From contig NZ_CP023018.1 in assembly GCF_022406875.1 (NCBI RefSeq), positions 1,835,557 through 1,899,556 of the forward strand: a DNA stretch of 64,000 nt, read 5' to 3'. The notes beneath the pieces are model-generated. The model saw only the letters and a list, made by a program, of their open reading frames with translations. It was not told where the DNA came from and did not search any database. Shown here one piece after another: positions 21,859 to 64,000 of this stretch; the stretch's first letter is position 1, and each line of letters starts with the position of its first letter. This DNA comes from Ectothiorhodosinus mongolicus. GTDB lineage: Bacteria > Pseudomonadota > Gammaproteobacteria > Ectothiorhodospirales > Ectothiorhodospiraceae. The translations under genes were made by a program, and so were the position numbers.

Positions 21859-24464
21859 GCGCGGGCGCATTGACCCGCTGGCAAGAGGTCTGGGAGCAGC
21901 TCAGCGACATTGAGCAGCGGCAAGCCCTAGCCGCCATCGTCAAGCGCATGCGCGACCCCAAAGCCCGACTTGAACGTCTCAAACAGACGGTCTTGCGCTC
22001 TTTAGCACGGCATCAGCGCAGCCGTATTGAGCGAGTCATGCGCCTTAAAGACGAACCGCTCATCGCCCAAATGCAGCCGTTGGTCAATGTTTTGTTTGGC
22101 CCGCGCGAGTGGACTCTTCTTTATCTCGGCTATTTTGCGGATCACAAGGCCGATCTCATGTGCCGTTTTATGTCGCTTTCCGGCGTGCCGCATGATGAGC
22201 ATGGCTACGTGCTGGGCGGTGACGATCTTATTAAGCCGCCCGATGACCTTGAGGCGACTGTGAGCATCATGCTCAAAGAGTATGGTGGCCGCGAGGTGGG
22301 GCTGTACTTCTTTGTTTTGCGCATGATGGATCCCGAGATTTGGACGTTTCTCGATCCGGTTATGCCGCGTATTGAAGCGGCTTTTTGGCCGGCGCAGCAA
22401 GCCTTTGCGGAACTCGACCCAAGCCCAGTTCAGGATTCTTTAGCCTCCGCCTCCCAGTCTATGCGGCCAGCGGGTTCATTATCGGGTCAGTCTTCTGGGT
22501 CTGCTGGCGGTGTGGATCCGCCCCCGCCGTGGCGTGAAGCCTTTGACAAGGGCAAGGAGGCCGCATTAAGCGGCGCCGATCTACCGGCCAGCAAAGACCT
22601 CGCGGTCTTGTGCGGCTATCTGTGTGTGCTGGCGCGGCGCCCGGATCTGTCGGTCCTTAAGCAATCATTGGCCAATCACGCGAAAGCCTGGCGCAAGCTC
22701 ATGATCACCGCCGGTGAGTCCGCCCCCGAGCTGTTGATTGACGTCTTGCCGGCGTTATTCGCGCTTGGCGAGAGTGAATCGGCCCTGACGCTGTTGCGCT
22801 GCCAAAAACGCCATGTCTCTGCGGATTATTTCCAACGGGGTACGACCCTAGCGCAACAGGTGGCAGCAAATGACGAGCAAGATGCGGCGATACAGCTGCT
22901 TAAGTTGCTTTTAGAGGCCTTGATTCATACGCCGATGCAGCGCAGCGCTCGTGAGCACCAGCGCGCCGAACTCGAGCTAGCTTTGGGGCGACTATGGCAT
23001 CGCCAGGGCCTATTCGAGGCCGCCGCTGAGCAATTCGCCCCTTGGCTCGAAGATCCGCGTATCTGCGATGCCGCTTTGCTCACCGATATGGGCCTACTTA
23101 AAGCGGGCCTCACCGATCTCACCAGCCTAAAGTTGGCGCAGGAACACCTGCCGCTGCAAACCCTGCGCCAACGCCTAGAGCAGGGCCGCCCCTACTTTGA
23201 GGACGCCGTCGAGCGCTTCAACGACAGCGCCGCCCAAGCCCACTACACCCTCGGCCTCATGGCCCTGCTCGACTGGTTCGAGCAGCCCACCAGCGAAGCC
23301 CTGCGCAGCTCCGCCCTCGCAAACTTATCCACAGGGGTACGACCCCAGAGTGGGGTCAGACCCCATTTGTGGGGTTTGGTGGGGTCGTACCCCTTTTATG
23401 CTTTATTGCTTGAGATGGCGCGGCTCGATCTTCCGACTGCAGAGAGGGCTATGGCGTTTTGGCGAGAGCAGCAGCGTCCGCTTGCGCCGGTGCCTGGAGC
23501 TGCGCTGGAACGCCTGTTGGAGCAAGCCGAGCTGCTGCAACCCGCCTGGGTGGTCGAGATCGGCGAGACCTTGATGGCTTGGGATGCTGATTTAGCATCG
23601 CGGGTGTTGGTGAAACCGCTCTGGTGGTCCAGTAGCCCGATCTTGTTTGAAGCCCTATGTCAGCTGTGCCGCCACAGCGATGATCAGCCGCAAGAGCGGC
23701 AGTGGCATCAGTGGCAGATGTTGGTCGGCGCAGCGCTGCGGCGTGATGCCCTAGACATCGCCCAAGAAGCGCTGGACGCCATGGAACAGCTGGCGGTGCA
23801 AAAGCGCTTCTGCGAGCCCATGCTCCACTTCATCGCGGATCTCGATCAGGTCTATCCCGCCTGGTCAGAGACCGATGTGTTGCGCGCGCGCTTTCGTTTA
23901 CTGCGGCGTCTTGGGCGGGATGCCGATGCCTATGCCCAGCTGCGCGAGTTGTTCTTCGCTATGCGTGATCATCGTCCCCAAGAGGCGGCGCAGGTGCTCG
24001 AGCTCTTCGCTGAATGCCGTGCCCCGGGCGCCTATACCATGGATTTGCATCTGCCCAATTGGGAGCGGGAAGAACATTTAGCGCCGGACATCGACGCACG
24101 ATTGGAGGCGGGTGAGTGTGTCAACGTGCTGTTTGTCGGCGGCAACGAAATCCAGGCGCGTTACATCGAGGATATCAAGGCTCAGCTGCACGAGCGTTGG
24201 CCGGGCATCAGCGTCGAGTTCCGCCTCACCGGTTGGTCATCGAACTGGGGTAGGGAAGTGGATGGGCTCAAGCGTCTAGCCGAAAACGCCGATGTTGTGG
24301 TGCTCATGACCATGATGCGCACGACCCTTGGCCGCGCCCTGCGCGAAGCCCTCAACGATCCGCCACGTCCCTGGGTCCCCTGCACCGGCACAGGCAAAAA
24401 AGCCATGCTCACCAGCATCCACCACGCCGCCCGCCTCGCCAAAAAGGGGACAGTCCCCATTTAA
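21855..24464 (+). CDS. Unrecognised 869-residue protein with DUF2325-like C-terminal domain
   Basis: Starts with GTG overlapping the DUF192 stop (GTGA). No signal peptide or membrane segment. The N-terminal 180 residues are helical and basic, the middle (about 230-720) is a helical repeat-like array, and the last 120 residues (V-N-V-L-F-V-G-G-N-E-I-Q-A-R-Y-I, then N-A-D-V-V-V-L-M-T) look like a DUF2325-type alpha/beta domain. The dispersed repeat intrudes at about residue 328 and, as a triple, at about residues 490-514. The final residues G-T-V-P-I and the TAA stop come from another repeat copy. Function unknown; position suggests a link to the Tad/HMA/DUF192 group, but this is weak. Confidence 0.6.
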   Translation: MSAGALTRWQEVWEQLSDIEQRQALAAIVKRMRDPKARLERLKQTVLRSLARHQRSRIERVMRLKDEPLIAQMQPLVNVLFGPREWTLLYLGYFADHKADLMCRFMSLSGVPHDEHGYVLGGDDLIKPPDDLEATVSIMLKEYGGREVGLYFFVLRMMDPEIWTFLDPVMPRIEAAFWPAQQAFAELDPSPVQDSLASASQSMRPAGSLSGQSSGSAGGVDPPPPWREAFDKGKEAALSGADLPASKDLAVLCGYLCVLARRPDLSVLKQSLANHAKAWRKLMITAGESAPELLIDVLPALFALGESESALTLLRCQKRHVSADYFQRGTTLAQQVAANDEQDAAIQLLKLLLEALIHTPMQRSAREHQRAELELALGRLWHRQGLFEAAAEQFAPWLEDPRICDAALLTDMGLLKAGLTDLTSLKLAQEHLPLQTLRQRLEQGRPYFEDAVERFNDSAAQAHYTLGLMALLDWFEQPTSEALRSSALANLSTGVRPQSGVRPHLWGLVGSYPFYALLLEMARLDLPTAERAMAFWREQQRPLAPVPGAALERLLEQAELLQPAWVVEIGETLMAWDADLASRVLVKPLWWSSSPILFEALCQLCRHSDDQPQERQWHQWQMLVGAALRRDALDIAQEALDAMEQLAVQKRFCEPMLHFIADLDQVYPAWSETDVLRARFRLLRRLGRDADAYAQLRELFFAMRDHRPQEAAQVLELFAECRAPGAYTMDLHLPNWEREEHLAPDIDARLEAGECVNVLFVGGNEIQARYIEDIKAQLHERWPGISVEFRLTGWSSNWGREVDGLKRLAENADVVVLMTMMRTTLGRALREALNDPPRPWVPCTGTGKKAMLTSIHHAARLAKKGTVPI
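22837..22848. repeat. Partial dispersed repeat core
   Basis: GGGGTACGACCC lacks the last C. Read in frame as R-G-T-T-L in the helical array of the 21855 protein. Confidence 0.45.
23325..23393. repeat. Triple dispersed repeat with DnaA-box consensus inside the 21855 gene
   Basis: TTATCCACA (23325-23333), then GGGGTACGACCCC (23334-23346), GGGGTCAGACCCC (23352-23364) and GGGGTCGTACCCC (23381-23393). All are read in frame as S-T-G-V-R-P-Q-S-G-V-R-P-H-L-W-G-L-V-G-S. First and third cores are inverted relative to each other. Confidence 0.9.
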
Positions 24465-26360: not shown

Positions 26361-26379
26361 GGATGCATCCCCAACAAAT

Positions 26380-26446
26380 GGGGTACGACCCCAATTAGCC
26401 TCGCTAATTGGGGTCGTACCCCTGTGGATAAGTGGGGTCGTACCCC
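26380..26446. repeat. Dispersed repeat triple forming a 20-bp perfect hairpin, with DnaA-box consensus
   Basis: GGGGTACGACCCC and GGGGTCGTACCCC with inner arms AATTAGC / GCTAATT form a perfect 20-bp stem with a 3-nt loop (26380-26422). TGTGGATAA follows (26423-26431), then a third core (26434-26446). It lies between the convergent phosphatase gene and rne, ending one base before the rne stop. Confidence 0.9.
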
Positions 26447-26447
26447 G

Positions 26448-50744: not shown

Positions 50745-50798
50745 GGGACGTGAGTTGGATAGTCATCCTACATGCCGATTTTGATGAGGATTCTAAGC

Positions 50799-51146
50799 AT
50801 GGCAAGAAATCTTGATGACTTGATGGCTTCATTACCGGATGAGAGACGCCGGCGGGTTGAGGTTCGAGCCTTAGAACTAGCAACACTCAGGGACCTCCGC
50901 GAGGCCACTCAACACACGCAAAAGCAAATGGCGGCCGTATTAGGGGTTGGTCAAGATTCAATCTCTCGTTTGGAAAAACGGAGTGATATGTTGCTGTCTA
51001 CGTTGCGCCATTACGTTGAGAGCATGGGCGGAGAACTGAACTTAGTAGTGCAGTTTCCGGACCGCCCACCCGTGGTGATCGAACACTTAGGCGTGGAGAC
51101 CTCTGTACGCCGAGTACCGAGGCGCTCGACGCCCGTATCTGTGTGA
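50799..51146 (+). CDS. XRE-family HTH protein (antitoxin-like, no toxin beside it)
   Basis: 115 residues from the ATG at 50799 (GAGGA 8 bases upstream). The HTH is at about 48-75 (T-Q-K-Q-M-A-A-V-L-G-V-G-Q-D-S-I-S-R-L-E). L-R-H-Y-V-E-S-M-G-G-E-L-N-L-V-V-Q-F is common in HigA/HipB-type antitoxin regulators. No RelE/HigB-like gene flanks it, so it may be a solitary regulator, perhaps of itself or the divergent TonB receptor. Confidence 0.8.
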   Translation: MARNLDDLMASLPDERRRRVEVRALELATLRDLREATQHTQKQMAAVLGVGQDSISRLEKRSDMLLSTLRHYVESMGGELNLVVQFPDRPPVVIEHLGVETSVRRVPRRSTPVSV

Positions 51147-51156
51147 GGGGATCTGC

Positions 51157-51169
51157 GGGGTCGTACCCC
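51157..51169. repeat. Dispersed repeat core downstream of the HTH gene
   Basis: A single GGGGTCGTACCCC, 10 bp after the HTH stop and 5 bp before the NtrC-type box. Confidence 0.75.
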
Positions 51170-51174
51170 ATTTG

Positions 51175-51191
51175 TGCACCGCGGTGGTGCG
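51175..51191 (+). promoter_or_regulatory. NtrC-type binding site
   Basis: TGCACC-GCGGT-GGTGC-G matches the NtrC consensus TGCACC-N5-GGTGCA at 11 of 12 fixed positions. Its centre is about 107 bp upstream of the predicted sigma-54 start, the classic enhancer distance. Confidence 0.6.
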
Positions 51192-51263
51192 GGGTGCTCT
51201 GAAAGTGCGCAGGCGAACGAAAGCATACGGCGGGAAAGGCGCATTGCTGCGTTGCAGAAAAGT

Positions 51264-51280
51264 TGGCACAGGGATTGCAA
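51264..51280 (+). promoter_or_regulatory. Sigma-54 (-24/-12) promoter
   Basis: TGGCAC-AGGGA-TTGCA, with GG (51265-51266) and GC (51277-51278) separated by exactly 10 bases, as the consensus requires. Predicted transcription start near 51290. No protein gene lies downstream on this strand before a strong terminator. Confidence 0.7.
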
Positions 51281-51289
51281 CAGGATAAG

Positions 51290-51373
51290 CGTCTGGCACT
51301 GACATCCTCTGGTCTTGCCGGTCGTTGTTCACTCCTCCTGCTTAGCGGGGCCCCTTGGCCCCGCTTTTTTTTT
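51290..51373 (+). ncRNA. Candidate sigma-54/NtrC-dependent small RNA
   Basis: About 84 nt from the predicted start to the end of the terminator U tract. A 6-bp 5' stem (CUGGCA 51293-51298 / UGCCGG 51316-51321) is followed by an unpaired region with ACUCCUCCU (51331-51339), complementary to Shine-Dalgarno sequences, and then a GC terminator hairpin with nine U, the Hfq-type end. No start codon with a ribosome site or useful reading frame is seen. Its last 32 nt are antisense to the end of the 51342 gene. Known NtrC/sigma-54 sRNAs exist in other gammaproteobacteria; similarity to them was not tested. Confidence 0.6.
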
Positions 51374-52178
51374 GGATGATCGCCAGAGGCGTATCCTCAT
51401 CCACCAATGGCTCACGGCGAATCGCTGTTAAAAGCCCACTGATCGGTGCGCATACGTCCGTGCTCAAAGCCCCGCTGTGGCGGTTATAGATGTGGCCCAC
51501 AAGATCTCCGGCCTGTAGCCAGCGCCCCGGCTCATGCCGCGACACAAACATGCCATTGGCTTCACCCAAAAGCACAAACTCATCGCCGGCATTGAAATAG
51601 TGGAAGTCATCCTCCACCTCAGCCAGCGCGAGCTCAGCAACAATGCCGGTATGGATCAAGAAATTCACCAGGGAATGGAACAAACGCTCACACAAAGCCG
51701 GCTGCAACTCAGCGGTACGTCCTGCCTGTAGTAAGAAATACTCACCCGGCGCACCCAGCCAAGACGGCATGCCGGCGCTCTGTGAAGGGACATCGGCGCC
51801 ATGCTCAATCACCGCCGGCAGGCCAAACAAACAAGCGGTCGCGCGCTCATCATCATTGGGCGCATGCAATGCAATCTGCGGTAAAGCATCCATGCCATGG
51901 CCGCCGGTGGTCAGCTCAATGCGGTAATACGCGCTACGCGTCATCTGCGCGATCTCATTCAAGTTCTCCGGCGAAGGGCAGGGCGCGATCAACACCCGAT
52001 GCTTAAGCTGCCCGCGTGGCGCCTCGCCGGACACCAACGCCTGGAGGAAAGAAGCCAGCCGCGCCAGCACAAACTGGGCATTGATATTGTCCTTCCAACG
52101 CGGATTCACCAGCGCCAATTGCGGCCGCCGCTGCGCCGGACCCAAATCATGCAAGGGGGGTGGTGCATCATTATCCAT
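51342..52178 (-). CDS. Succinylglutamate desuccinylase/aspartoacylase-like protein
   Basis: 278 residues. The central region (I-A-P-C-P-S-P-E-N-L-N, then P-A-V-I-E-H-G) and the C-terminal small beta domain (A-N-G-M-F-V-S-R-H-E-P-G-R-W-L-Q-A-G-D-L-V-G) resemble the AstE/AspA family of M14-like zinc enzymes. The usual H-x-x-E zinc ligands and D-x-H-T motif are not evident, so it may be inactive or altered. Last codons overlap the opposite-strand terminator. Divergent from nagZ. Confidence 0.6.
   Translation of the reverse strand: MDNDAPPPLHDLGPAQRRPQLALVNPRWKDNINAQFVLARLASFLQALVSGEAPRGQLKHRVLIAPCPSPENLNEIAQMTRSAYYRIELTTGGHGMDALPQIALHAPNDDERATACLFGLPAVIEHGADVPSQSAGMPSWLGAPGEYFLLQAGRTAELQPALCERLFHSLVNFLIHTGIVAELALAEVEDDFHYFNAGDEFVLLGEANGMFVSRHEPGRWLQAGDLVGHIYNRHSGALSTDVCAPISGLLTAIRREPLVDEDTPLAIIQKKSGAKGPR
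51344..51373 (+). terminator. Strong intrinsic terminator
   Basis: AGCGGGGCC, 4-nt loop, GGCCCCGCT, then a run of T to 51373. A 9-bp GC stem. It overlaps the C-terminal codons of the opposite-strand 51342 gene. Confidence 0.88.
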
Positions 52179-52238
52179 CGTGCCTCGCCTCCTTTTGGCT
52201 ACAATAGGCCGCGAAATCGTCGGCTTGGGAATATCGAC

Positions 52239-62675: not shown

Positions 62676-64000
62676 ATGTCGATTAGTTCTTATCCCCGCT
62701 GTGTCCGGCTCGATTGCCCGTCCGACAGTGCCGCTTTATTCGCCGCATTCGCCGATCGCGATTATGCCATCTGGTTGGACAGCGGTTCAGGCCGTGCACG
62801 TTGGGATGTCTTGTGTTTGGTGCCCTGGATCACGCTGGTTAGCCATGCCCACGGCACCGAAATCACTCACTGGGATGGTGGTTTGGATTCCGAGCTGGTG
62901 CGGCAAAGTGTCAGCACCTCCATTGAACCACCTTTACACGTGCTGCGGCGCAGCTTAGCCCCCCTGATGTGCCCTACCATTGACGCAAAGCAAGCGCTGC
63001 CGTTTTTCGGGGGCGCCGCTGGCTATTGGTCCTATGATCTCGGCCGCAGTCTCGAGTCGCTCCCCACCCAAGCTCGTGATGAACCCAGCATCCCCCTCAT
63101 GACCCTCGGCATCTACGACTGGGCCATCCTCGTCGACCATCAAGAATCCGCCGTCTGGCTCGTCGGCCAAGGCCACACCCCCGCCACCCGCGACGCCTGG
63201 CCCACCCTTGTGGACTACTTCAACCAATGGGGTACGACCCCAACGAGCACCGCTAGTTGGGGTCGTACCCCATCTTTCGCTGAGTGGGGTCGTACCCCAT
63301 TTCAATCTCGTTCAAAGTTGCGCAGCAACCTCACGGCTGAGCAATATGCTGGCGCTTTCGCGCGTCTGCAGGACTACATCCGCGATGGTGACTGCTATCA
63401 AGTGAATCTCGCACAGCGCTTTTGCGCCGAGGTCACCGGCGACCCCTTCGCCGCTTACCTCAAGCTGCGACACGACAGCCCCGCACCCTATGGCGCCTAC
63501 CTCAAACTCCCGGAGTTCGAGATTCTGAGTAACTCACCAGAGTGTTTTCTGCGGCTAGAGCAGGGCACTGTCACCACCCGACCGATCAAAGGCACGCGGC
63601 CGCGTCACCCCGATGCAGAGCAAGATGCACAAGAGGCGAGATGCCTCCAAGAAAGCCTGAAAGACCGCGCCGAAAACCTCATGATCGTTGATCTATTGCG
63701 TAACGACCTCGGCCGCTGCTGCACGCCGGGCAGCATCCAAGTGCCGCAGCTGTTCACCTTAGAAAGCTACGCCAACGTGCATCATCTGGTGAGTACCGTC
63801 ACCGGCCAGCTCGCCCCCGGCAAAGATGCCATAGATCTGCTCGCTGCCAGCTTCCCCGGTGGCTCCATCACTGGCGCCCCCAAACTGCGCGCCATGCAAA
63901 TCATCGAGGAACTCGAGCCGCATCGCCGCGGCATCTACTGCGGCGCCATCGGCACCCTCGGCTTTGACGGCAACCTCAACACCAACATCGCCATCCGCAC
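62676..64000 (+). CDS. pabB: Aminodeoxychorismate synthase component I, 5' part
   Basis: 441 residues are visible and the frame runs off the window. An anthranilate-synthase-like N-terminal domain (about 1-180) is followed by the chorismate-binding domain (from about 220: D-G-D-C-Y-Q-V-N-L-A-Q-R-F, P-I-K-G-T-R-P-R, N-L-M-I-V-D-L-L-R-N-D-L-G, P-G-G-S-I-T-G-A-P-K). Makes aminodeoxychorismate for folate. Three dispersed-repeat cores are read in frame in the linker. No ribosome site precedes the ATG; TAGAAT at 62663-62668 would start transcription at or next to it. Confidence 0.93.
   Translation, partial: MSISSYPRCVRLDCPSDSAALFAAFADRDYAIWLDSGSGRARWDVLCLVPWITLVSHAHGTEITHWDGGLDSELVRQSVSTSIEPPLHVLRRSLAPLMCPTIDAKQALPFFGGAAGYWSYDLGRSLESLPTQARDEPSIPLMTLGIYDWAILVDHQESAVWLVGQGHTPATRDAWPTLVDYFNQWGTTPTSTASWGRTPSFAEWGRTPFQSRSKLRSNLTAEQYAGAFARLQDYIRDGDCYQVNLAQRFCAEVTGDPFAAYLKLRHDSPAPYGAYLKLPEFEILSNSPECFLRLEQGTVTTRPIKGTRPRHPDAEQDAQEARCLQESLKDRAENLMIVDLLRNDLGRCCTPGSIQVPQLFTLESYANVHHLVSTVTGQLAPGKDAIDLLAASFPGGSITGAPKLRAMQIIEELEPHRRGIYCGAIGTLGFDGNLNTNIAIR
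63229..63298. repeat. Triple dispersed repeat inside pabB
   Basis: GGGGTACGACCCC (63229-63241), GGGGTCGTACCCC (63259-63271) and GGGGTCGTACCCC (63286-63298). They encode three W-G-(T/R)-T-P peptides in the linker between the two domains, adding about 25 residues. First and second are inverted relative to each other, with partial inner pairing. Confidence 0.92.

Follow-up and report, generated by a model that had tools for sequence, protein, structure and literature searches.

A predicted sigma-54-dependent small RNA with an anti-Shine-Dalgarno linker in Ectothiorhodosinus mongolicus and its relatives

Position and architecture of the predicted RNA

The window analysed here is a stretch of 64,000 nucleotides, positions 1835557–1899556 of the single contig (1,995,095 bases) that makes up the genome of Ectothiorhodosinus mongolicus, which is related to the purple sulfur bacterium Ectothiorhodospira. 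A candidate sRNA of about 84 nt lies on its plus strand at 51290–51373, with the start inferred from the −12 element; the upstream neighbour is a gene for an HTH protein (50772–51146), where nine of the relatives have a lipoprotein gene. The elements of the locus are as follows:

51175–51191, plus strand: NtrC-type enhancer site, TGCACC-GCGGT-GGTGCG, 11 of 12 consensus bases; NtrC binding is predicted
51263–51279, plus strand: sigma-54 promoter TTGGCACAGGGATTGCA with GG-N10-GC spacing, kept in 12 of the 13 homologues in the family
51290–51373, plus strand: predicted sRNA of about 84 nt, from the fold and a 13-sequence alignment with covariation
51290–51324, plus strand: 5' hairpin, a covarying helix with 5 of 11 pairs changed on both sides
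51325–51343, plus strand: single-stranded linker with the anti-Shine-Dalgarno core ACUCCUCCUGCUU (51331–51343); ACUCCUCCUGC is invariant in 13/13 sequences
51344–51373, plus strand: intrinsic terminator, a 9-bp GC hairpin followed by a T run, seen in fold, alignment and sequence

The preliminary description of this DNA had proposed these parts from the letters alone, and we recovered each of them: the box with 11 of 12 fixed bases, the promoter with exact GG-N10-GC spacing, a distance of about 107 bp from the box centre to the predicted start, and about 84 nt without an ORF, ending in the 9-bp GC hairpin and T run. The 84-nt RNA contains neither ATG nor GTG on the plus strand, and one frame has a TTG. 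Its calculated fold (−33.9 kcal/mol, z = −4.89, with 0 of 200 shuffles as good) has the layout that had been described, namely a 5' stem, an unpaired linker carrying ACUCCUCCUGCUU, the 9-bp hairpin and the T run.

Taken singly, the NtrC box and the sigma-54 element are at about the chance level in 64 kb, while the fold is well beyond it. The box is the sole match with at most one mismatch in the window, with 0.32 expected and such a match in 28 of 100 shuffles. The sigma-54 match is exact; allowing one mismatch, the window holds 2 matches against 0.96 expected, and the looser pattern TGGYAY-N6-TGC occurs 4 times. The order and distances of the parts are nevertheless as first described, and we consider the sRNA unit real because of this order and spacing and, above all, because the promoter, box, linker and helices are conserved in relatives.

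Two further features of the neighbourhood were recorded. A convergent ORF on the minus strand (51342–52178, without a Pfam match) has its last codons within the sRNA terminator, at 51342–51373. Short palindromes TGGGGTNNGACCCC are dispersed through the window, with 47 matches on both strands at no more than one mismatch against 0.31 expected, at places that include 51157–51170, 23333–23394, 26379–26447 and 63228–63299; one copy precedes the NtrC box by 4 bp, and similar copies occur elsewhere in the genome.

Conservation of promoter, helices and linker

BLAST with the region gave matches in 5 of 58 genomes, its own included, and the pattern YACTCCTCCTGCTTN{0,1}GSGGGG was found in 6 of 58, every one in the same genus. 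The sigma-54 element, 5' stem, linker and terminator are common to the genus alignment; conservation is low between the box and the promoter. When named genomes were scanned for ACTCCTCCTGCTTN{0,1}GSGGGG, 13 stretches came up, four of them in records of Ectothiorhodospira (E. shaposhnikovii DSM 243 and beta1, E. haloalkaliphila ATCC 51935 and E. lacustris A-7Y), and all four of these have a T run as well as, upstream, a sigma-54 element. The other nine core matches, from unrelated taxa, were set aside as chance, the sigma-54 element being upstream of 0/9.

A covariance model of the six RNAs (R1), searched against 47 genomes of the order at E ≤ 0.01, found 21 places in 15 genomes, six of the places being the model's own sequences. 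Seven further places, spread over three further genera, are clear homologues (G010, G012, G013, G015, G017, G019 and G021; E = 7.4e-6 or better). The sigma-54 element stands at the same distance in six of these seven (as TGGTAC in G017); in G013 (L033) the promoter is lost, and the sRNA homologue is preceded by a transposase-like gene. Eight weak places were dropped because no sigma-54 element is nearby. The sRNA is present in 13 of the 47 genomes, with the sigma-54 promoter kept in 12 of the 13. Four of the ten genomes of the genus (G001, G004, G008 and G009) gave no R1 match, and none convincing near nagZ with filters off; in genus g3 a credible copy was seen in 0 of 30 genomes, and its two R1 matches look spurious. 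It should be noted that the genome studied here (G000) has 2.0 Mb at 99.95% completeness, against 2.6–3.8 Mb for the nine other listed members of the genus, which we read as genome reduction in its own lineage.

Judged by eye from the ORFs, a NagZ-like gene lies within about 1.5 kb downstream in 9 of the 13 genomes (our own, G002, G003, G005, G006, G007, G017, G019 and G021), and a divergent gene for a small alanine-rich lipoprotein lies upstream in 9 of 13 (G002, G003, G005, G006, G007, G012, G017, G019 and G021). The window protein encoded at 52209–53279 matches PF00933.

In the 13-sequence alignment, where the window terminator sits in a shifted register, 91.7% of cells pair (86.4% in shuffles), both-sided changes affect 8 pairs and 20 cells (3.6 and 6.3 in shuffles), and the covariation score is 0.279 (0.181 in shuffles). 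None of 500 shuffles reached the observed value for cells paired, double changes or covariation score; the number of further pair types was unexceptional (143 of 500 shuffles), and slid versions of the structure pair only 33–46%. Double changes weigh more than cells paired, since the structure was drawn from the same sequences, which favours the latter. Both helices covary, and the double changes of the 5' stem include CUAAC/GUUGG, CUGAC/GUCGG and CUGGC/GCCGG. The stretch ACTCCTCCTGC is invariant in 13/13, a count to be read with the fact that the model contains ACTCCTCCTGC and that the core served to find seven of the sequences.

The minus strand could itself be the meaningful one, encoding a small ORF behind a perfect Shine-Dalgarno sequence (AGGAGGAG, spacer, ATG), and such a Shine-Dalgarno sequence with ATG is found on the minus strand in 12 of 13 homologues. 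The window, however, has no ATG there, the ORFs range from 10 to 61 codons with no common length, the CAU complement of the ATG pairs in the 5' stem, and the sigma-54 promoter and terminator face the plus strand. The minus-strand signal may be explained by the base of the stem, and we regard an ORF there as very improbable.

To look beyond the family we used a second covariance model (R2) of the 13 sequences, with the promoter left out. Among 369 genomes of the class (E ≤ 0.001) it was found in 12 genomes including our own, with 12 places outside our own genome (two of them in G224); over 398 phylum genomes it added two more from that class (G752 and G756), each with the sigma-54 element. All 14 R2 places in other families have TGGCAY-N6-TGC no more than a few tens of bases upstream. 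The background of this pattern is 49 in 769,320 bases (6.4e-5 per base, about 0.4% per 60 bases), so that the 14/14 result is far from chance; a promoter-blind model and fourteen sigma-54 promoters together make a ready list of loci.

These data also bear on the simplest alternative, that the hairpin is a mere terminator of the HTH gene at 50772–51146 and the motifs are coincidental. Each motif singly is indeed near its chance expectation, but the elements are conserved jointly where the HTH gene is not a neighbour, and with the 14/14 promoter result we give this alternative hardly any credence.

An independent pattern (sigma-54, CTCCTCC, T6) was found in 15 of the 369 genomes, and in none with reversed-pattern controls. 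Besides our own, 11 of these genomes were kept (f67, f92, f120, f127, f132 and f151) and three were rejected or held doubtful: the two of f57 resemble a leader of a fliE-like gene and lack a stable hairpin, and the one of f117 is doubtful. In f127 (G172 and G380) a NagZ gene directly follows the RNA, as in Ectothiorhodospira, which points to a common origin. Across loci the linker occurs as ACUCCUCCUGCUU, CCCUCCCUCUC, ACUCCUCCUUU and GCUCCUCCCUUUGG.

Several of the distant loci have features of their own. Those of f67, f92 and f120 (L092–L094, L099 and L101) carry a distinct linker, GCUCCUCCC/CUUUGG or ACUCCUCCCUUUGG, and perhaps form a separate subfamily. By eye, an asparaginase-like gene lies downstream of the RNA in f67 (L093 and L094), and in G752 (L116) the unit sits between an AmtB-like gene, which it closely follows, and a gshA-like gene, which it precedes. 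G224 (L085, 1473–1762) has two tandem sRNA-like units, each with its own sigma-54 element.

Nitrogen control and candidate targets

The NtrC consensus is TGCACC-N5-GGTGCA. We scanned up to 170 bp upstream for the best match to it at the 12 family loci with a promoter (G013 was left out), and in 12/12 the best site had 9–11 of 12 bases, 11 in the window. The shuffle p value was ≤0.01 at 10 of the 12 loci, with 0.065 in G010 and 0.144 in G017. Counted from the −24 element, the sites lie at −97 to −101 (9 loci), −70 (2 loci) and −89 (the window), and in G006, G007, G019 and G021 they are paired about 31 bp apart. NtrC itself scores above the curated cut-off in 34 of the 36 genomes searched, our own included; the two genomes without it are G021 (82% complete) and G380 (75% complete). 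A sigma-54 domain was found in 45 of the 47 genomes of the order, and our own genome has both ntrC and rpoN.

Conservation had been proposed beforehand as one check on the preliminary description, and the −24/−12 element, the box and CUCCUCC are all kept in relatives; a sigma-54 sRNA under NtrC-type control is well supported by conservation in the genus and family. The promoters might still answer to other enhancer-binding proteins, or to ones that vary between lineages, with nitrogen not the main signal for an otherwise real sigma-54 sRNA. Outside the family, an NtrC-like site at p ≤ 0.05 was found at 5 of 23 loci (a set that includes the rejected f57 and doubtful f117 rows), which leaves 18 of 23 without one, and each genome searched encodes many NtrC-like regulators (16 matches in our own). 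Within the family, on the other hand, all 12 promoters have a site with 9–11 of 12 bases, mostly near −70 or −100, and we consider other activators unlikely, if the most serious of the alternatives.

The reading we favour, and hold to be probable, is that of a trans-acting sRNA, induced by NtrC and sigma-54, which uses its C/U-rich linker to mask ribosome-binding sites under nitrogen shortage. Once fixed nitrogen runs low, phosphorylated NtrC bound at the site about 107 bp upstream would activate sigma-54 polymerase, which would make a free-standing RNA of about 84 nt belonging to the Ntr regulon. The 5' hairpin and terminator would keep the ACUCCUCCUGCUU linker open, and the linker would pair with strong Shine-Dalgarno sequences of the type AGCAGGAGGAGU in a set of mRNAs and block their translation, probably with Hfq, a dependence with which the T run is compatible. 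Selected carbon and energy proteins would thereby be lowered while nitrogen is scarce. Against this reading stand the four genus genomes and the g3 genomes in which no credible copy was seen, the lost promoter of G013, the high p values in G010 and G017, the small share of NtrC-like sites outside the family, and target energies within background. A conserved sRNA with an exposed anti-Shine-Dalgarno core would be a direct switch-off of translation in nitrogen starvation.

The blocking of ribosome-binding sites, already suggested in the preliminary description, is inferred from a linker that is invariant, predicted to be unpaired and complementary to AGGAGGAG, features that speak for its pairing to such sites. 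For targets we searched 12 genomes for AGGAGGAGT-N3-9-ATG and 6 genomes for CAGGAGGA-N4-12-ATG (ATG starts only in both), and read 30 loci and 20 stretches among the matches listed in the latter. Among the matches listed, and judged by eye, sites recur before genes for a TAXI-TRAP receptor (G002, G003, G005, G006 and G007), acetyl-CoA synthetase and a DUF4212-like permease subunit (G006 and G007), nuoA (G000, G003 and G005), thiolase and FlgG (G003 and G005), and Hsp20 and a YedE-like protein (G002, G003 and G005). A brake on carbon use through the recurrent sites before carbon and energy genes is speculation. The search against ribosome sites that had been recommended yielded no candidate clear of background in our own genome: three candidates there, at −18.2 to −19.5 kcal/mol, fall among the values obtained for 70 start sites in the window (mean −11.6, sd 4.2, best −21.5 kcal/mol).

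One further idea was abandoned. Read in reverse complement, the central part of the RNA gives a Shine-Dalgarno sequence, an ATG and similar first codons, as if it were directed against one cognate target. This was dropped for two reasons: the CAU is paired with GUG in the basal part of the 5' stem, and across the 12 genomes no AGGAGGAGT-N3-9-ATG site with the sRNA's own spacer was seen outside the sRNA locus.

That no convincing target was found would also suit an RNA that binds a protein or another RNA, as a decoy or sponge, instead of covering ribosome-binding sites, and an anti-Shine-Dalgarno sRNA can itself be a sponge partner (PMC7143759, PMC8401924, PMC12559287). Since the invariance coincides exactly with the unpaired stretch that can pair with AGGAGGAG, we consider this alternative improbable.

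Comparison with known regulatory RNAs

At gathering scores, Rfam matches in the window were two tRNAs only, with nothing at the sRNA, and none of the 22 homologue and candidate loci matched any Rfam 15 family. The best sub-threshold match of the window RNA was RF00519 (suhB/mmgR), with 23.4 bits against a gathering cut-off of 41, followed by RF02278 (21.5 bits) and RF02866 (21.2 bits); RF00519 also overlaps the RNA, at 23.4–25.5 bits, in L091, L092 and L116. We recognised no description of the present RNA in the accessible parts of the open-licence PubMed Central literature, in which the sole free-standing NtrC/RpoN sRNA given for gammaproteobacteria is NrsZ.

NrsZ of Pseudomonas aeruginosa is a free-standing sRNA produced under nitrogen limitation through NtrB/C with RpoN (PMC9308961, PMC8395346). 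It differs in being 226 nt long and processed, in adjoining ntrC, in its conserved motif ACAGGCAG and in activating rhlA. The motif ACAGGCAG is absent from the window RNA and, unlike in NrsZ, ntrC (1066677–1068041 of the contig) and the RNA (near 1886845) are not neighbours.

Three other RNAs share single traits. GlnZ of Enterobacteriaceae is an RpoN-dependent sRNA of the NtrC regulon that represses sucA (PMC9731577), but it is released from the glnA 3'UTR rather than made from its own transcription unit. NfeR1/alpha-r14 of rhizobia is an anti-Shine-Dalgarno sRNA tied to NtrBC (PMC10746234); it differs in having three hairpins with CCUCCUCCC, an RpoD-type promoter and NtrC as repressor. NcS25 of Burkholderia is a short sRNA whose single-stranded part pairs with Shine-Dalgarno sequences, but its authors report no sigma-54 motif upstream and an RNA level unchanged under nitrogen depletion (PMC10117139).

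The closest likeness is to MmgR and the alpha-r8 RNAs (RF00519, with Caulobacter SisA–D). MmgR is described as an sRNA of 77 nt that depends on Hfq, bears an anti-Shine-Dalgarno motif, is induced by NtrC and limits PHB; alpha-r8 RNAs carry UUUCCUCCCU after a hairpin, and by means of UUUCCUCCCU Caulobacter SisA represses mRNAs (PMC7143759, PMC8401924, PMC12559287). Both they and the window RNA have a hairpin, an unpaired anti-Shine-Dalgarno stretch and a terminator, and the induction of MmgR by NtrC and nitrogen limitation is like the signal predicted here. The same sources place these RNAs in alphaproteobacteria with the core UUUCCUCCCU, whereas the window RNA has UUCACUCCUCCUGCUU; the regulatory motif of mmgR is described within −35/−10 boxes, and one table gives RpoD and RpoN. 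The window RNA is like MmgR/alpha-r8 in anatomy and predicted signal but, by score and core, falls outside RF00519.

Taken together, the loci may belong to a deep sRNA family, not represented in Rfam and spread over several families of gammaproteobacteria, of sigma-54-dependent anti-Shine-Dalgarno RNAs that forms a repressive arm of Ntr control and is either kin to MmgR/alpha-r8 or convergent with it, a reading that we put forward tentatively and to which we give somewhat less than even weight. If it is true, such sRNAs would hold back carbon uptake and oxidation in nitrogen starvation, and the likeness to MmgR raises the question of whether RNAs of this kind are an old part of Ntr control.
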